Source of the DNA: Microbacterium testaceum
Lineage (GTDB): Bacteria > Actinomycetota > Actinomycetes > Actinomycetales > Microbacteriaceae
NCBI RefSeq assembly: GCF_029761935.1
Contig: NZ_CP121699.1
Coordinates: 2,790,001-2,854,000 of the forward strand
Direction of reading: 5' to 3'
DNA: 64,000 nt
Shown here: positions 3 to 16,446 of the stretch, piece after piece
Position numbering within the stretch: the first letter of the stretch is position 1
Layout: the number at the start of each line of letters is the position of its first letter
Notes under the pieces: model-generated
Told to the model about the DNA's origin: nothing
The model's input: the letters and a program-made list of their open reading frames with translations, nothing else
Databases searched by the model: none
Program-made: the position numbers and the translations under genes

Positions 3-2414
3 GCCGGGAAGCTCGACTTCTTCGACGCACGCTTCGCGATCCCCGACGACGCGTACTCGGCGGTGTCGCACACCTGGGACACCACCTCCCGCGCTGACGG
101 CGACGTGGTCGTCTCGGCCACCGACGGCGACGAGACGGTCACGCGCACCGTGCGCGTCGACAACACCGCGCCCGTGGTGACCTCGCGCATCGTCGACGGC
201 ACCGCCTACCGCGGCCCGATCGACATCGACGCGCAGATCGTCGACGCCGGGTCGGGGGTCGCCTCGACCGTCGCTCGACTCGACGGCCGCGAGATCACCC
301 TTCCCCTGAAGACGTCGTCGCTCGACCTCGAGGCCGGCGACCACCGGCTCGAGATCGTCGCGACCGACGGAGTCGGCAACACCACCACCTGGTCGGCCGT
401 CTTCGAAACCTACGCGGAGCAGCCGGCCGCGGGGCTGCTCACTCCCGCCGACGGCGCCGAGGTCTCGGCCGGCGAGGTCACCCTGCAGGCGAAGGTCGAG
501 GACCCGCAGGGGGACGCGCTCGATGTCGCCTTCCTCGAAGGTCGCCGACTCGATCTGGCCGACGGCGATGTGGCGGTGCGATCGGGCACGGTGGCCGACG
601 CCGCCTCGGTGGACCGCTCGGAGCCGCAGACGCTGTCGCGCGCTCAGGTCGAGACCTTCGCCGCCGTCGACGGTCTGAGCGACGACGTCTCGAGCACCGA
701 GGCGTTCCCGTACCAGCTCTTCGAGGTGGGAGTGGATGCCGCGGACGCGGGCGCCGACGTGCGATCGACGTGGTCGGGACGAGCGAACGCCGGGGCGACG
801 GTCGTGCTGTCGGTGCAGCGTCGCGACGGGTCGGGCTGGGATGAAGTCGACCGACACGTCACCCGGAACGCCGACGAGGCCTTCGAGCTCGACGGAGTCG
901 TTCCGGTCGACGAGTACGCGGTCGACGGTGTCGTGCGCATGCTCGTCCAGCACTCCGAGGGTTTCGCGGCACCCGATCAGAGCACGCGCGACACCGCGGT
1001 CACCCCGCACAATGCCGCCGACGTGCCGCGTTCGGACTACGACTTCACCCTCGGGTGGGAGTCGGACACGCAGTACTACAACGAGAACGAGATGGCGGGG
1101 AACCCCTACAAGCACCAGGAGGCCATCCACTCCTACTTCCTCGACCGTCGAGAAGAACTGAACCTGCAGTACGTGTTCCACACCGGCGACATCGTGGACG
1201 ACTACGACGTCATCCCGCAGTGGGACCGGGCGGCGGTGCAGTACGACCGCCTCGACGCGGCGGGTCTGCCGTACGGGGTGCTCGCTGGCAATCACGACGT
1301 CGGCCATGACGTGGGCGACTACACGAACTACGGCCGCTACTTCGGAGAGGACCGTTTCGCCGCCAACCCCTGGTACGGCGGCAGCTACGAGAACAATCGC
1401 GGCCACTACGACCTCGTGTCGGCGGGCGGCATCGACTTCCTCATGCTGTACACCGGGTGGCTACCGGACGATGCGTCGATCGCGTGGATGAACGACGTCT
1501 TGAAGCGCTACCCCGATCGCGTCGCGATCGTGGCGCAGCACGAGTTCATCCTCACCACGGGAGGGCTCGGGGCCATCCCGCAGCGGGTGCTCGACGAGGT
1601 GGTGGCTCCCAATCCGAACGTGCGGATGGTGATGTCGGGGCACTATCACGACGCCTTCCTCCGGACGGATGCCTTCGACGACGATGGAGACGGCGTCGAC
1701 GACCGCACCGTGTATTCGATGCTGTTCGACTACCAGGGCCTGCCCGAGGGAGGGCTCGGGTTCTTGCGCCTGATGCACTTCGACAACGAGGGCGAGCGCA
1801 TGATGGTGCGCACCTATTCGCCGTCGCTCGACCAGTACAACTCCGACGAGCCGAGCCTGCTCGGTCCGGCCGACGACCCGTACGCGCAGCAGGACTTCGA
1901 GCTGACATACGACCAGCTCGGCATCGAGCCGCGTGAGCGCACGCTCGGCACGGACGCGTTCTCGGCCGAGGTGCTCGGCACGAACGAGATCGCCTCGTTC
2001 TCGGACGTCGACAGCGGAAGCGTGCTGTCGGCGACCTGGACGCTGACCGAGGAGGGGGAGCGGGGATGGTACGTGCGATCGACGGATCCGTTCGGCGCCG
2101 TGGACTCCTCGCGCGTCGCGCTCTTCACCGTGCGCGCGGTCTCCGTCGGGCCGGGGGATCCGAATGCGCCGGGTGCCCCGGGGTCGGGTTCGCCCGGACA
2201 GCCGGGTGCGGGTTCGCCGGACCGTCCGGGTGCGGGAACCGGTGACGGTTCGACCGCCGACGGGGCAGCGGGAGGGAATCGACCGGGGCGCGCGCCTCTC
2301 GCGGTGACGGGGGCGGATGCCGCCGTGCTGGTGCCGTGGGTGGTGGGAGCGGCGCTGCTGCTCGCGGTCGGCGCGACCCTGCTCGCTATCCGACGACGAC
2401 CGCGCCGGAGCTGA
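3..2414 (+). CDS. Sortase-anchored calcineurin-like metallophosphoesterase, 5' end outside window
   Basis: The frame is open from base 3, so the gene begins upstream and about 803 residues are visible. The first ~300 residues look like Ig-type beta domains (DNTAPVV, DGVGN turns). The phosphoesterase domain follows, with the ordered metal-ligand motifs GDIVDD, GNHD, QHEF and GHYHDA in the middle third of the visible protein. The C-terminus has a Pro/Gly/Ser-rich stalk, the sortase-type signal LAVTG, a hydrophobic stretch and the basic tail RRRPRRS. It is probably a wall-anchored enzyme that hydrolyses phosphodiesters or phosphomonoesters outside the cell; the substrate cannot be told. A strong hairpin (2536-2569) ends the transcript. 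The domain calls are firm, the precise role is inference. Confidence 0.9.
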   Translation, partial: AGKLDFFDARFAIPDDAYSAVSHTWDTTSRADGDVVVSATDGDETVTRTVRVDNTAPVVTSRIVDGTAYRGPIDIDAQIVDAGSGVASTVARLDGREITLPLKTSSLDLEAGDHRLEIVATDGVGNTTTWSAVFETYAEQPAAGLLTPADGAEVSAGEVTLQAKVEDPQGDALDVAFLEGRRLDLADGDVAVRSGTVADAASVDRSEPQTLSRAQVETFAAVDGLSDDVSSTEAFPYQLFEVGVDAADAGADVRSTWSGRANAGATVVLSVQRRDGSGWDEVDRHVTRNADEAFELDGVVPVDEYAVDGVVRMLVQHSEGFAAPDQSTRDTAVTPHNAADVPRSDYDFTLGWESDTQYYNENEMAGNPYKHQEAIHSYFLDRREELNLQYVFHTGDIVDDYDVIPQWDRAAVQYDRLDAAGLPYGVLAGNHDVGHDVGDYTNYGRYFGEDRFAANPWYGGSYENNRGHYDLVSAGGIDFLMLYTGWLPDDASIAWMNDVLKRYPDRVAIVAQHEFILTTGGLGAIPQRVLDEVVAPNPNVRMVMSGHYHDAFLRTDAFDDDGDGVDDRTVYSMLFDYQGLPEGGLGFLRLMHFDNEGERMMVRTYSPSLDQYNSDEPSLLGPADDPYAQQDFELTYDQLGIEPRERTLGTDAFSAEVLGTNEIASFSDVDSGSVLSATWTLTEEGERGWYVRSTDPFGAVDSSRVALFTVRAVSVGPGDPNAPGAPGSGSPGQPGAGSPDRPGAGTGDGSTADGAAGGNRPGRAPLAVTGADAAVLVPWVVGAALLLAVGATLLAIRRRPRRS

Positions 2415-2535
2415 TCACCACGACGGCGCCTGCCCCTCGGGGTGGGCGCCGTCGTCGATGGCGGCGGCGGATGCGCGCGGGCATCGGGTGTCGGCATCCG
2501 CTCGACAGAGAAGGGGCCTGATCGAGGGCGAGAGT

Positions 2536-2569
2536 AAGGGCCGGTCGGAGAGGCTTCCGACCGGCCCTT
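2536..2569. terminator. Intrinsic terminator hairpin, repeat copy 1
   Basis: A perfect 14-bp stem: arm 2536-2549 (AAGGGCCGGTCGGA) pairs with 2556-2569 around a 6-nt loop. It lies 121 nt past the stop of the metallophosphoesterase gene. There is no clear U tract, which is usual for high-G+C actinobacteria, so it could stop transcripts from either side. The same hairpin, slightly changed, starts the second repeat copy at 4211. Confidence 0.75.
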
Positions 2570-2672
2570 GTCCCTGCACCAAGAGTGTCCTGCAATCACA
2601 TGTCGGTAGCTGCCACAGCAAAACAACTACCGTGCCAGCACTCTATAACGGTGAGGTAACGGAGGGGAAGAG
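2536..2672. repeat. Intergenic repeat element, copy 1 (of two)
   Basis: About 137 bp that recur in the same orientation at 4211-4342. From 2572 to 2672 the two copies differ only by a one-base indel and a handful of substitutions. Parts in order: terminator hairpin, a conserved core (2585-2630) with a short inverted repeat CGGTAG/CTACCG, the palindrome GTGC-CA-GCAC (2632-2641), and a TATAAC box (2644-2649). It fills much of the gene-free stretch 2415-2860. The remainder (2673-2860) is partly AT-rich, unusual for this genome, and holds nothing else that I can name. It may act as promoter/operator for the regulator at 2870 or encode a small RNA on the minus strand. No transposase is near. Function unknown. 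Confidence 0.85.
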
Positions 2673-2869
2673 CTCGCCGTTATATTTTCGTGATCGATTT
2701 TCCGAGGGGTCTCCGCGTCACCGCAGCGAGATCTGGGGACTGCGCGGATCCCCCCTCCGGAGGGCCGTTCCCCGCACTCGGAGGCGCGGCATCGCCCTAC
2801 GATCGTCTGGTGGACACACCGCGGATGGCGACCTCGCCGCCTCGCCGGTGCGAATGAGGGGTGGGGCAG

Positions 2870-3499
2870 GTGAACCGACGTCAGCAGGGCATGGCCGAGG
2901 CGCGGCGCGCGATCATCGAGGCGGCCGGCGAGCAGTTCGCGATCCGCGGCTACGAGGGCGCGTCGTTCGCGCGCGTGGCCGAGGCGATGGGCCGCCCCAA
3001 GTCCGCCATCGGGTACCACCAGTTCGCCTCCAAGACGGCGCTGGCCGCCGCGGTGATCGAGTCGCAGCAGGCGCGGTGGCGCGAGATCGAGGGGGGATTG
3101 TCGCAGCCCCACGGGCTCGAGCGTCTCGCCGCGCTCCTGTTGGCGGCGTCGTTGGACGCTTGTTCGTGCCCGGTCGCGGCCGGCGCCACGCGGCTCCTCC
3201 ATGAACTGCGCAAACAGGGGGTCGAGGTGCCCGACGGATTCGATTGGTACGGCATCATCGCCGCCGAATTCGACGCCGCCGCCCGCGCGCACGGGGTCGC
3301 CGAGGTCCCCTCGTTCGCTCCCGAGCTCCTTCTGGGGGCGACGTTCGGCGTCTACGAGACCGGGGACGTCGACGATGCCGCGCTGGCGTCGCGCCTCACA
3401 TCGCTCTGGGTGCCCCTGCTGCGCTCGTTCGGATTCGTCGACGCCGAGGACGAGGTGCAGCGAGCCGCCGCGCAGGAGTTCGTGCCGCTTCCGCACTGA
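2870..3499 (+). CDS. TetR-family regulator resembling gamma-butyrolactone receptors
   Basis: 209 residues. The N-terminal helix-turn-helix (about residues 25-50) ends in the YHQFASK recognition-helix pattern of TetR proteins. The C-terminal part (ATRLLHE, a Trp in FDWYGII, then GATFGVY and a late LTSLWVPLL helix) recalls the ScbR/ArpA gamma-butyrolactone receptor branch, where a Trp in the same area contacts the ligand; that resemblance is by eye. The GTG at 2870 has GAGGGG/GGGG upstream; an in-frame GTG at 2861 is possible. The gene lies between the two copies of the intergenic repeat and converges with a histidine phosphatase. Autoregulation through the repeat palindrome is an inference. 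The TetR call is safe, the ligand class is tentative. Confidence 0.82.
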   Translation: MNRRQQGMAEARRAIIEAAGEQFAIRGYEGASFARVAEAMGRPKSAIGYHQFASKTALAAAVIESQQARWREIEGGLSQPHGLERLAALLLAASLDACSCPVAAGATRLLHELRKQGVEVPDGFDWYGIIAAEFDAAARAHGVAEVPSFAPELLLGATFGVYETGDVDDAALASRLTSLWVPLLRSFGFVDAEDEVQRAAAQEFVPLPH

Positions 3500-3542
3500 T
3501 TCCGCATCACGTCGTCGCGCGATGCGCGAGGGGTGGGGCGGC

Positions 3543-4163
3543 TCAGCGTCCGCGCACGTGATTCCACTGCGTGATGACCTCCGAGCCGTGCTCGAAGCCG
3601 AGCTCGCTGACGGCCGAAGTGCCGAGGACGAAGTACCGCCCGCCCGCCGCCGTGAGGCCGAGCCAGGTGCCCGCGAGAGCGCGAAGGAAGTGGGAGTGCG
3701 AGAAGAGCAGAACCTGCTGACCGGCACGCACGCGGGGCCGGAGATCGGTGAGCAGGGACTGTGCGCGCTCGGTGACCTGCTCCACGGTCTCTCCCGGGGT
3801 GGCCCCCGCGGGGGCCCCGGCCTGCCAGATCGTCCACGGGCGGCCGAGTTGCTCGATGATCTCGGGGGTCGTCAGGCCCTCGTAGGCGCCGTAGTCCCAC
3901 TCGACCAGGCGCGGCTCGTGCCGCGCGTCGCCGTAGCCCGCGCGCTCGGCGGTTTCGACCGCCCGCTGGAGGGGGCTGGTGAGCACGAGGTCGTATCGAC
4001 GCGTGGCGAGAAGAGTCCCGGCGAGCTCGGCCTTGTACGCACCGGTCTCGGTCAGGGGGATGTCGGTGAGCCCGGTGTGCTTGCCGGTCCGACTCCATTC
4101 GGTCTCGCCGTGCCTCACGAGCACGATGCGCCCGTCGGGCTCGGTCAACTCTTCGTCTTTCAC
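3543..4163 (-). CDS. Histidine phosphatase (phosphoglycerate mutase-like)
   Basis: 206 residues of the RHG phosphatase superfamily. The N-terminal VRHGETEW carries the catalytic His that is phosphorylated; SHSHFLRAL near the C-terminus supplies the second His, and SPLQRAVETA is the usual mid-region phosphate-pocket helix. Family members act on phosphosugars, phosphoserine or cofactor phosphates; the substrate here cannot be read from sequence. The GTG at 4163 is preferred because GGGAGG lies about 10 nt upstream and translation starts just before the RHG strand; longer versions would run into the repeat element. It converges with the TetR gene and diverges from the HNH gene, with repeat copy 2 between. 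Confidence 0.85.
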   Translation of the reverse strand: MKDEELTEPDGRIVLVRHGETEWSRTGKHTGLTDIPLTETGAYKAELAGTLLATRRYDLVLTSPLQRAVETAERAGYGDARHEPRLVEWDYGAYEGLTTPEIIEQLGRPWTIWQAGAPAGATPGETVEQVTERAQSLLTDLRPRVRAGQQVLLFSHSHFLRALAGTWLGLTAAGGRYFVLGTSAVSELGFEHGSEVITQWNHVRGR

Positions 4164-4210
4164 CGTCTCATCCTCCCGCGTCGCCGTGGTCGCGCATTCC
4201 GAAACGGACG

Positions 4211-4242
4211 AAGGGCCGGTCGGGAAATCCCGACCGGCCCTT
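4211..4242. terminator. Intrinsic terminator hairpin, repeat copy 2
   Basis: A 14-bp perfect stem, 4211-4224 with 4229-4242, around the loop AAAT, followed by TTCC on the plus strand. It is the second version of the hairpin at 2536, with a shortened loop. It stands between two divergent genes, so it does not end a known coding transcript. This suggests it belongs to the repeat element itself, perhaps ending a minus-strand RNA before the phosphatase gene. Confidence 0.65.
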
Positions 4243-4342
4243 TCCTGCACCAGAGTGTCCTGCAATCACATGTCGGTAGCTGCCACAGCAAAACAACTAC
4301 CGTGCGTGCACTCTATAACGGTGAGATAACGGAGTGGAAGAG
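4211..4342. repeat. Intergenic repeat element, copy 2
   Basis: The second copy of the element at 2536-2672, same orientation, 1.67 kb away. Core and order are the same: hairpin, conserved stretch, palindrome GTGC-GT-GCAC (4302-4311), TATAAC (4314-4319), then GGTGAGATAACGG. The two bases between the GTGC and GCAC arms differ from copy 1 (CA there, GT here) while the arms are kept. It occupies most of the gene-free stretch 4164-4480. The rest (4343-4480) has the -10-like TAGCAT 6 nt before the HNH start codon and nothing else recognised. Confidence 0.85.
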
Positions 4343-4480
4343 GGGTTGGGACGTTCTTTTCTCTTTCATAGGTTCCGGGTGGCGGAGGGGGCTTCTCCCC
4401 ATGCCCTGTGTTTCGCGATCTCTCCCCCGCGGCCCGCCCGACGACCCGTGAATGTCGGAGGTCGTCGCTAGCATGCACAC

Positions 4481-5869
4481 ATGTTCTCGTCGACGCCCTC
4501 TCCCGCTGACTCCGCGGGATCGAGCGTGCGCGAGGCGCTGGTGGCCGAGGCCCTCGCCGCCGATGCCGCGCTCGCCGCGGCCGAGGCCCGGCGCACGCGG
4601 GCCTACGCCGCTCTCGGCCAGTACGGCCTGACGCGCGCCCCGGAGCACAGGGCGTCCGTGCGCGCGTCCGACATGGCGATGCGAGAGATCGCGTCCGAGG
4701 TGGCCGCGGTGGCGCACCTCTCCGACCGCACCGTGCAGACGCACATCGGTCGGGCGCTGCAACTCGTCGACGACTACCCCGCTGTCGTCGACGCCTGGGA
4801 GGCGGGCGCTCTCACTCGAGCCCACGTGCGGATCGTGCTGGATGCCGGGGCCGCCCTGCCCGAGGATCGGCGTCCGGAGTTCGGCCCCCTCGCGGCCGGG
4901 TGGGCCGCCCAGCTCAGCCCGGGGCGGCTGCGTTCGCGGTTGGCCGCGCTCGCCGAGAAGCTGCACCCGACGACGCTGACCGAGAGGCGCCAGCGGGGCC
5001 GCGAGACGCGGTGCGTCCGGGTCGTGCCGGGCGTGGACGGCATGTCCGACCTCATCGCGACTCTTCCCACGGTGCTCGCGGTGGGCATCTACGACCGGCT
5101 GACGCTGCAGAGCCGCGCGGTGATCGATGCGCGGACCGTCGGCGGGCCGGACCCGCAGGTAGACCGCACGACCGCCGAACCTGTTCAGGGCCAGGGAGCG
5201 ACGGCATCCGCCGCCGACGAACGCACGACCGACCAGTTGCGCGCCGACATCCTGGCGGACCTTCTTCTGGCGGCGGCTCCCGTCGCCGATCCGACCCGCT
5301 CCGATGACGGTCCCGGCGTGCTCGGGGCGATCCGTGCTCGCGTGCAGGTCGTCGTGCCCGCCCTGGCCATGCTGCGGCCCGGCGACGAGAACCTCGACCC
5401 TGCGGAACTCGTCGGGCACGGTCCCATCGACGCCGAGACCGCTCGTGGCATCGCGGAATCCACGACCGTCCCCTGGGATCGCGTGGTCACCCACCCCGTG
5501 ACGGGGGCCGTGCTGTTCACCGACACGTATCAGCGGTCCTCCGCCATCGACCGGCATCTCCGCGCCCGCGACCGGCGTTGTCGGTGGCCCGGGTGTGCTG
5601 TCCCCGCCGTCCGGTGCGAGGTCGATCACACGGTCGACTGGGCCTTGGGTGGCGCGACTCGCGTCGACAATCTCGCCCACCTGTGCCAGCGGCACCACTC
5701 GCAGAAACAGTTCACCCGGTGGAAGGTGAGGCAGAGAGCCGGCGGCATCCTGGAATGGACGTCTCCGTCCGGTCGTGTCTACGCGGACGAGCCGCTGCCC
5801 TACGCTCCCGCCGTGCGCTTCCTGCCCGATGATCCGTCGCCGCCCGACGACGAGGCGGCCCCGTTCTGA
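4481..5869 (+). CDS. DUF222 / HNH endonuclease domain protein (13E12-repeat type)
   Basis: 462 residues, the usual size of this actinobacterial multi-copy family. The DUF222 helical domain fills roughly residues 10-330. A C-terminal HNH module follows: CRWPGC, then VDHTVDW with the first catalytic His, GGATRVDN, and the CQRHHSQK end. Members are believed to cut DNA, and many are linked to mobility, but their biological role is not settled. TAGCAT sits 6 nt before the ATG, so the mRNA is probably leaderless. It lies just downstream of repeat copy 2, which may be relevant to how the repeat arose. No intron, intein or transposase is visible. Confidence 0.9.
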   Translation: MFSSTPSPADSAGSSVREALVAEALAADAALAAAEARRTRAYAALGQYGLTRAPEHRASVRASDMAMREIASEVAAVAHLSDRTVQTHIGRALQLVDDYPAVVDAWEAGALTRAHVRIVLDAGAALPEDRRPEFGPLAAGWAAQLSPGRLRSRLAALAEKLHPTTLTERRQRGRETRCVRVVPGVDGMSDLIATLPTVLAVGIYDRLTLQSRAVIDARTVGGPDPQVDRTTAEPVQGQGATASAADERTTDQLRADILADLLLAAAPVADPTRSDDGPGVLGAIRARVQVVVPALAMLRPGDENLDPAELVGHGPIDAETARGIAESTTVPWDRVVTHPVTGAVLFTDTYQRSSAIDRHLRARDRRCRWPGCAVPAVRCEVDHTVDWALGGATRVDNLAHLCQRHHSQKQFTRWKVRQRAGGILEWTSPSGRVYADEPLPYAPAVRFLPDDPSPPDDEAAPF

Positions 5870-16326: not shown

Positions 16327-16446
16327 ATCGGCATGGATGCCGTCAGAGGTGCGCATCATGCTCAGTTTCGCGGCCACGCGGGCCGTCGCACCGTGCACTC
16401 TGCCGCGACGGAGCCCGTCCATCGAGGGCGGCGTAGCCTCTCCGTC

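Follow-up and report, generated by a model that had tools for sequence, protein, structure and literature searches.

A duplicated intergenic block of Microbacterium testaceum as a probable small RNA gene of the Microbacteriaceae

The stretch of Microbacterium testaceum DNA analysed here (NZ_CP121699.1, positions 2,790,001 to 2,854,000; 64,000 nucleotides (nt), hereafter the window) carries a duplicated noncoding block, at 2536-2672 and again at 4211-4342. We propose that each block is a stand-alone minus-strand gene for a trans-acting small RNA of ~100 nt, probably controlled by the response regulator MtrA and found throughout the Microbacteriaceae; from comparative sequence evidence we give this reading a probability of roughly 0.78. 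An earlier note on this DNA had described two near-identical noncoding blocks with hairpins in the same orientation, and this is confirmed: within the window, 2582-2672 and 4252-4342 form a direct repeat of 91 nt at 96% identity, and both blocks contain a perfect hairpin (2536-2569 and 4211-4242). Of the readings offered in that note, the minus-strand small RNA that ends at the hairpin draws support from promoter conservation, from compensatory changes in two helices and from conservation across the family. A promoter/operator cassette holds for the upstream half of the block. The plus-strand genes to which the note had drawn attention, for a TetR-type regulator and an HNH protein, do stand next to the blocks, as divergent neighbours and not as the genes served, because the relevant strand is the minus strand.

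A predicted small RNA gene in two copies

Along the minus strand each gene runs in the order upstream box, spacer box, -10 box of the form TANNNT, 6 nt, predicted start (2633 in copy A, 4303 in copy B), 5' hairpin (SL1), core AUGUGAUUGCAGGACACUCUUGGUGCAAGGGA and terminator-like hairpin. The SL1 loop is near-invariant, with the consensus UUU(U)GCUGUGG. The features in the window are as follows.

2678..2693, plus strand: upstream operator-like box of copy A, CGTTATATTTTCGTGA, half-sites 11 bp apart, a one-mismatch match to CGTTA-N6-CGTTA
2646..2661, minus strand: spacer operator-like box of copy A, between -35 and -10, CGTTACCTCACCGTTA
2640..2645, minus strand: -10 box of copy A, TAGAGT (TANNNT)
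2534..2633, minus strand: predicted 100-nt small RNA of copy A (type A), the start being deduced from the -10 box
2604..2632, minus strand: SL1, the 5' hairpin of copy A, loop UUUUGCUGUGG
2575..2602, minus strand: near-invariant core of copy A, CAUGUGAUUGCAGGACACUCUUGGUGCA, containing a predicted small hairpin, SL2 (2575-2594)
2536..2569, minus strand: intrinsic-terminator-like hairpin of copy A, loop with GCCUC
4316..4331, minus strand: operator-like box of copy B, CGTTATCTCACCGTTA
4310..4315, minus strand: -10 box of copy B, TAGAGT
4209..4303, minus strand: predicted small RNA copy B (type B), 95 nt, predicted start near 4303

A covariance model built from Microbacterium copies gave four matches in the own genome (3.38 Mb), of which the two strong ones are copy A (2534-2635, 124 bits) and copy B (4209-4305, 106 bits), both copies being themselves part of the model seed. 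The two extra matches are weak, and those seen in the window, at 31.6 and 28 bits, are the antisense reading of the hairpins. BLAST likewise found two copies of the block in this genome, plus a self-match of the hairpin in reverse.

Distribution in the Microbacteriaceae

The 103-nt core was found by BLAST in 69 of 71 Microbacterium genomes, the own genome included (E 1.5e-13 or better), and in none of 47 genomes of other genera; the two negative Microbacterium genomes are 83% and 44% complete. An exact 32-nt pattern searched in named records returned 43 stretches, 40 from Microbacterium, 2 from Microbacteriaceae and 1 from an Actinomycetota metagenome-assembled genome (MAG). The first covariance model, seeded with 72 genus copies only, matched 247 of 299 family genomes, from 75 of 85 genera (E<=0.1); at the stricter E<=1e-3 the figures, read from the table, are 240 genomes and 70 genera. 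Twelve of the 20 listed genomes without a match are of 1.7 Mb or less, and the other eight are of 2.1-4.1 Mb. The seed alignment of the model omits one of 73 representatives, a copy without terminator in locus L040, and the genus sequence sets overlap (197 copies with repeats, 173 unique).

A second model, built from 46 copies of other genera, was run on 297 genomes of the order and 246 of the class. It matched 22 family genomes in the order set and 12 in the class set (E<=4.4e-6), and only 11 distinct genomes outside the family, at E 1.8e-4 to 0.01 (7 in the order set, 5 in the class set, one in both). Six of these 11 weak matches were inspected and the core was absent from all of them, the best stretch matching 11-16 of its 32 letters where four family copies match 31-32; members outside the family were rejected on these grounds. 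The predicted small RNA spans the family and, within the genomes sampled, is restricted to it. Thus the core search in the own genome and other Microbacteriaceae and the covariance-model building that the earlier note had proposed both led to a family-wide set of matches, with covarying stems. The core is also not confined to a recent duplication, a prospect raised in the same note, but conserved far beyond the window.

Structure and noncoding character

Base pairing of the predicted RNA is maintained by compensatory change. Both partners have changed in 14 of 25 pairs of the genus alignment (69 cells; shuffles give 10.8 +/- 2.7) and in 19 of 28 pairs of the family alignment (140 cells; shuffles give 36.9 +/- 4.4); none of 500 shuffles reaches the observed covariation, which may be inflated by the relatedness of the sequences. 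Pairs were counted on MAFFT alignments, the family alignment omitting 3 of 49 copies (L214, L229 and L231). In the latter 97% of cells are paired, falling to 35-51% once the alignment is slid. Compensatory changes affect 5 of 8 pairs of SL1 in the genus and 7 of 10 in the family, and 12 of 13 pairs of the terminator-like hairpin in the family. The predicted window transcripts also fold more stably than their shuffles (z-scores of -5.15 for copy A and -5.95 for copy B).

Between the two hairpins, 27 of 32 core positions are unchanged and only five ever change among 49 family copies, an invariance that is slightly flattering since core-anchored counts include only copies with a nearly intact core. 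Given its presence in 75 of 85 genera and this hardly changing 32-nt stretch, the predicted RNA must be under strong constraint. The terminator loop carries GCCTC in 47 of 49 family copies and in 86 of 94 type A genus copies, and in 1 of 30 type B copies; such a conserved GCCUC loop is, in our view, unusual for a mere terminator. Transcription is predicted to end at this hairpin.

A small peptide was considered as the product and rejected on account of 1-nt length changes and an almost complete lack of third-position change. The length differences are seen in the SL1 loop (UUU or UUUU) and in type B, which misses one U. The covarying stems and the unchanged core positions likewise speak for a noncoding product.

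Promoter and candidate regulator

The predicted RNA would be served by its own housekeeping-type promoter, as judged from its conservation. A TANNNT -10 box, given as the canonical mycobacterial -10 element (PMC6009663), precedes 113 of 113 unique genus copies (TAGAGT in 88, TACAGT in 16, five other forms in 9) and all 49 family loci (TATATT in 21, other forms in 28). In both sets the search pattern itself required CGTTATA...T or TGTTATA...T, which every copy passed. The -35 element is weak. The spacer holds two CGTTA halves at a distance of 11 bp, unchanged in all 113 unique genus copies, and every one of the 49 family loci has a GTTA pair at the same spacing (GTTA-N7-GTTA). The two Cs after the first GTTA are each kept in 94% of these loci, and the second half reads GTTAT, not GTTAC. 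Upstream, a second and oppositely oriented box pair (TAACG/TAAC) is present in 37 of 49 family loci; in the window it corresponds to the box at 2678..2693, which ranks third in the window by position weight matrix (score 17.9). Weaker matches to the same matrix occur elsewhere in the window at 16432 (11.5) and 40576 (9.9).

A minimum free energy fold of a longer stretch had closed the structure with an AGAGTG/CACTCT stem, of which AGAGT lies within the -10 box. The middle letters of the -10 box vary freely and CACTCT hardly varies, and the stem was rejected because of this variation.

An OmpR-type response regulator, most probably MtrA, likely binds the repeat, to judge by its letters and spacing. 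It agrees with the MtrA site described for Streptomyces, GtnAcC-n5-GTnAcn (PMC13189361, PMC5650626), apart from a T that replaces the weakly conserved second c, and the own genome encodes MtrA (383.8 bits, cut-off 300). Repeat pairs are present in 98 of 99 genus genomes. In the own genome the exact pair CGTTA-N6-CGTTA occurs at 3 sites, against 0 for the reversed control, and with at most one mismatch at 21 sites against 10. Two of the exact sites belong to the two RNA copies. The third (C1:804324; box at 1501-1516 of locus L125) lies 29 nt before an SLT-like, or transglycosylase-like, gene (497-1471 of L125, minus strand), a label that is weak, with 18.5 bits in L168 and 13.7 in L156 against a cut-off of 21.3 and no match in L125 and L137. 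A one-mismatch box, CGTGACATGTTCGTTA (1501-1516 of locus L286; C1:3219826), stands upstream of an M23 peptidase gene (1576-2604 of L286). The other sites among the 21 are inside genes or ahead of unrelated genes. The M23 peptidase gene adjoins a gene for an iron-dependent repressor.

Outside the RNA, the repeat was found before an SLT-like gene in 14 of 36 loci and before a glycerophosphodiesterase (GDPD) gene in 8 of 36, figures that are not unbiased rates, the 36 loci having been picked partly for recurring spacer letters. GDPD genes are phosphate-regulated elsewhere. These loci, five of the eight being GDPD by Pfam, together with the phosphatase genes that adjoin the RNA in the window, could mean that the direct repeat is recognised not by MtrA but by another OmpR-type regulator (a PhoP/PhoB-like or a GlnR-like protein). 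We regard this as somewhat unlikely: the repeat is closer to the published MtrA form than to the PhoR site of Corynebacterium glutamicum (PMC3353115), and two of the best own-genome sites precede cell-wall hydrolase genes. The hydrolase genes favour MtrA, and the GDPD gene would also suit a phosphate regulator. In seven of the eight GDPD loci a CoaBC-like gene lies alongside (DFP/Flavoprotein by Pfam in L174).

If MtrA is the regulator, the positions of the boxes, one on the -10 side and one upstream, may mean either activation or repression. For the C. glutamicum form of the box, (A/G)TAACAATttn(A/G)TAACAAT, repression has been linked to binding near the -10 box and activation to binding upstream of the -35 element (PMC3353115).

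Neighbouring genes and independence of the predicted RNA gene

The genes next to the two copies in the window include the following.

2861..3499, plus strand: TetR-type regulator between the copies, by Pfam
3543..4163, minus strand: histidine phosphatase (His_Phos_1), downstream neighbour of copy B, by Pfam on a translation from 4196; the start codon is a candidate

TetR was met only at the own-genome loci and at L070 (M. testaceum StLB037), and the TetR gene is a local addition outside the conserved unit. Across the family the recurring neighbour is a MarR-type gene, on the same strand and downstream in 39 of 49 family loci within 1 kb and in 42 within 2.5 kb, its identity resting on Pfam in L207 and on tblastn with two MarR pieces in the other loci (the L052 slice matched no Pfam family and is probably in the wrong frame). 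The distance between RNA and MarR ranges from 91 nt to more than 2 kb. Of 55 copy-MarR pairs in Microbacterium, 53 lack a Shine-Dalgarno sequence and show a TANNNT box 5-8 nt ahead of the MarR start codon, so that MarR is apparently leaderless there, with a promoter of its own. Among 39 MarR genes from other genera, 12 follow this pattern, 25 have a Shine-Dalgarno sequence without a near -10 box and two have neither, some MarR genes being counted twice in this tally. The mode of MarR start, leaderless in Microbacterium and mostly with a Shine-Dalgarno sequence elsewhere, is a possible switch of translation start inside one family.

Neighbours vary further within the genus. Of six query proteins, the first to be met within 1 kb downstream of 148 genus copies (with repeats) is MarR in 49 cases, histidine phosphatase on the same strand in 29, HNH in 7 and a facing metallophosphatase in 10, and none of the six is met in 53. 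In the window, copy A faces a convergent metallophosphatase gene, copy B lies ~50 nt before the histidine phosphatase, and MarR was not met beside either copy by tblastn with the two MarR pieces. Copy A of a MAG (L040, 6470-6659) is without a terminator, has MarR 20 nt on and runs into the MarR coding sequence, by deletion or assembly error.

Such neighbours raise the question of a leader acting in cis, in which the terminator of an attenuator or riboswitch would control the downstream gene (MarR ancestrally, histidine phosphatase for copy B). The same-strand MarR gene within 1 kb in most family loci, the short distance from copy B to the phosphatase, the riboswitch-like anatomy of a near-invariant core followed by a terminator, and the MarR genes outside Microbacterium that have a Shine-Dalgarno sequence and no near -10 box would all suit a leader. 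We nevertheless hold it to be very unlikely, since copy A faces a convergent gene, the position ahead of a gene is not fixed (MarR is at widely varying distances or not found), nearly all Microbacterium pairs show an apparent leaderless MarR promoter, and no alternative antiterminator pairing is backed by covariation. Because the distance and identity of the neighbour vary and, in Microbacterium, MarR appears to have a separate promoter, the predicted RNA is an independent gene and not a leader, less clearly so in other genera than in Microbacterium.

Duplication of the predicted RNA gene

The two copies in the window are of different types. Type B, with 30 unique genus copies, has one U fewer in the core, a short linker and a terminator loop without GCCUC. 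Among 27 two-copy loci, which are partly redundant, 17 are B-A (same strand with B first in all 17), 8 are A-A (one on opposite strands) and 2 are B-B. Since several M. testaceum records, M. proteolyticum and further Microbacterium genomes also carry the B-A pair, the window pair appears to be older than this strain: by sequence comparison its two copies stem from a duplication that a number of M. testaceum genomes and their relatives have in common. Close tandem A-A duplications, ~200-260 nt apart, were seen in other Microbacterium genomes (L017, L053 and L112).

Duplication might also point to a mobile or repeat element (MITE-like or REP-like) fixed by chance, the window holding two copies and other matching genomes one or two, rarely three. 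The earlier note had listed the footprint of a mobile unit among its readings, and we find it hardly credible: copy number is low, mostly one or two per genome, MarR recurs as neighbour, there are no flanking inverted repeats, no many-copy genomes with target-site duplications were seen, base pairs covary and the promoter is conserved. Searches of 50,697 phage and 72,556 plasmid records gave no match, and phage or plasmid cargo was rejected on this result.

Mode of action and relation to known RNAs

We propose that MtrA, or another OmpR-type regulator, binds the GTTA-N7-GTTA repeat in the RNA promoter, and that the RNA would thereby join a cell-envelope/osmotic regulon with the M23 peptidase and the transglycosylase-like protein. 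It would then act in trans, offering the loops UUUGCUGUGG and GGACACUCUUGG and the GCCUC of the terminator loop to several mRNAs or to a protein; the GCCUC loop could pair with the GAGG of ribosome-binding sites. The conserved loops are, from their conservation, likely the working surface.

Several observations weigh against a family-wide, MtrA-controlled small RNA of this kind. With respect to distribution, 10 of 85 family genera have no model match at E<=0.1, and the complete 2.8-Mb Microbacterium genome G562 lacks the RNA by model and by BLAST, an apparent loss. With respect to structure, the pairs of SL2 (UUGCA/UGCAA) never vary and are neither supported nor refuted by covariation, RNAalifold on the genus alignment replaces SL1 and SL2 by a rival pairing of invariant letters, and three copies from other genera (z-scores -3.8, -6.3 and -3.5) fold without SL2, the best fold of L234 also lacking SL1. 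Hardly any U tract comes after the hairpin (CUUAC, CUUCG), and two of the three reading frames frequently stay open along the RNA, neither being kept throughout. With respect to regulation, there are the GDPD loci already described (L135, L143, L151, L174, L176, L177, L184 and L185), and no strong box was found in the mtrA locus examined. Finally, the 12-mer exactly complementary to the SL2 loop has 57 matches in 59 genomes, all of them inside the RNA genes (places compared by eye), a lack of targets that may reflect composition, the reversed 12-mer giving 19 matches.

6S RNA and Ms1 have the shape of a long bulged rod. An Ms1/6S-like RNA or a sponge, binding RNA polymerase, the ribosome or an RNA chaperone instead of pairing with mRNAs, would account for a core with more unchanged positions than a single antisense seed needs, and for the want of an exact 12-nt target of the SL2 loop. 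It would also agree with the absence of a 6S match (RF00013) from the own genome and of any word beginning 'Microbacteri' from the main text of an Ms1 survey (PMC9130861). We think it unlikely, as the RF00013 search is insensitive here (9 of 14 control genomes, C. glutamicum included, were also negative) and the predicted shape, two short hairpins and a terminator within ~100 nt, is unlike the rod.

On comparative grounds, the product of the block represents a new family within a known class, the bacterial small RNAs. Nothing above the gathering cut-off was found at the RNA with Rfam 15 in positions 2400-4500 of the window or in four relatives, the best match at the window RNA being PtaRNA1 (24.8 bits, cut-off 47) and the relatives having none. 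6S RNA (RF00013) is likewise small and widely conserved; the present RNA is without its long bulged hairpin. The Mcr7 small RNA of M. tuberculosis is controlled by the response regulator PhoP, so that both would be small RNAs under an OmpR-type regulator in an actinobacterium, with different hosts and regulators; we liken the two by description only. The hairpin loops of the actinobacterial 6C RNA are runs of C. Short like the present RNA, it too has loops that could face ribosome-binding sites, where ours offers UUUGCUGUGG and GCCUC instead. Ms1 is longer and binds core RNA polymerase, and it differs in size and shape from the present RNA. Like the present RNA, Ms1 of Mycobacterium and Streptomyces is an actinobacterial intergenic noncoding RNA at a syntenic place (PMC9130861). 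The rpfB attenuator of M. tuberculosis shares a structured RNA with a terminator hairpin and a tie to a cell-wall hydrolase, but is the 5' leader of rpfB, whereas the present RNA is predicted to be an independent gene (PMC6009663). Among the matches listed in a search of mostly open-access literature on small RNAs of Microbacterium, Clavibacter, Leifsonia and Microbacteriaceae and on MtrA with small RNAs, none describes this RNA.

We speculate, and consider it quite unlikely, that the RNA is a lineage-specific global regulator, an envelope-stress (MtrA) RNA with a near-invariant core, in the place of 6S or Ms1, that would act on RNA polymerase, the ribosome or many mRNAs. To our knowledge, little has been learned of actinobacterial small RNAs outside Mycobacterium and Streptomyces. 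The covariance model would permit immediate annotation of the RNA in Microbacteriaceae genomes, and if MtrA controls it, the cell-envelope two-component system gains an RNA arm.

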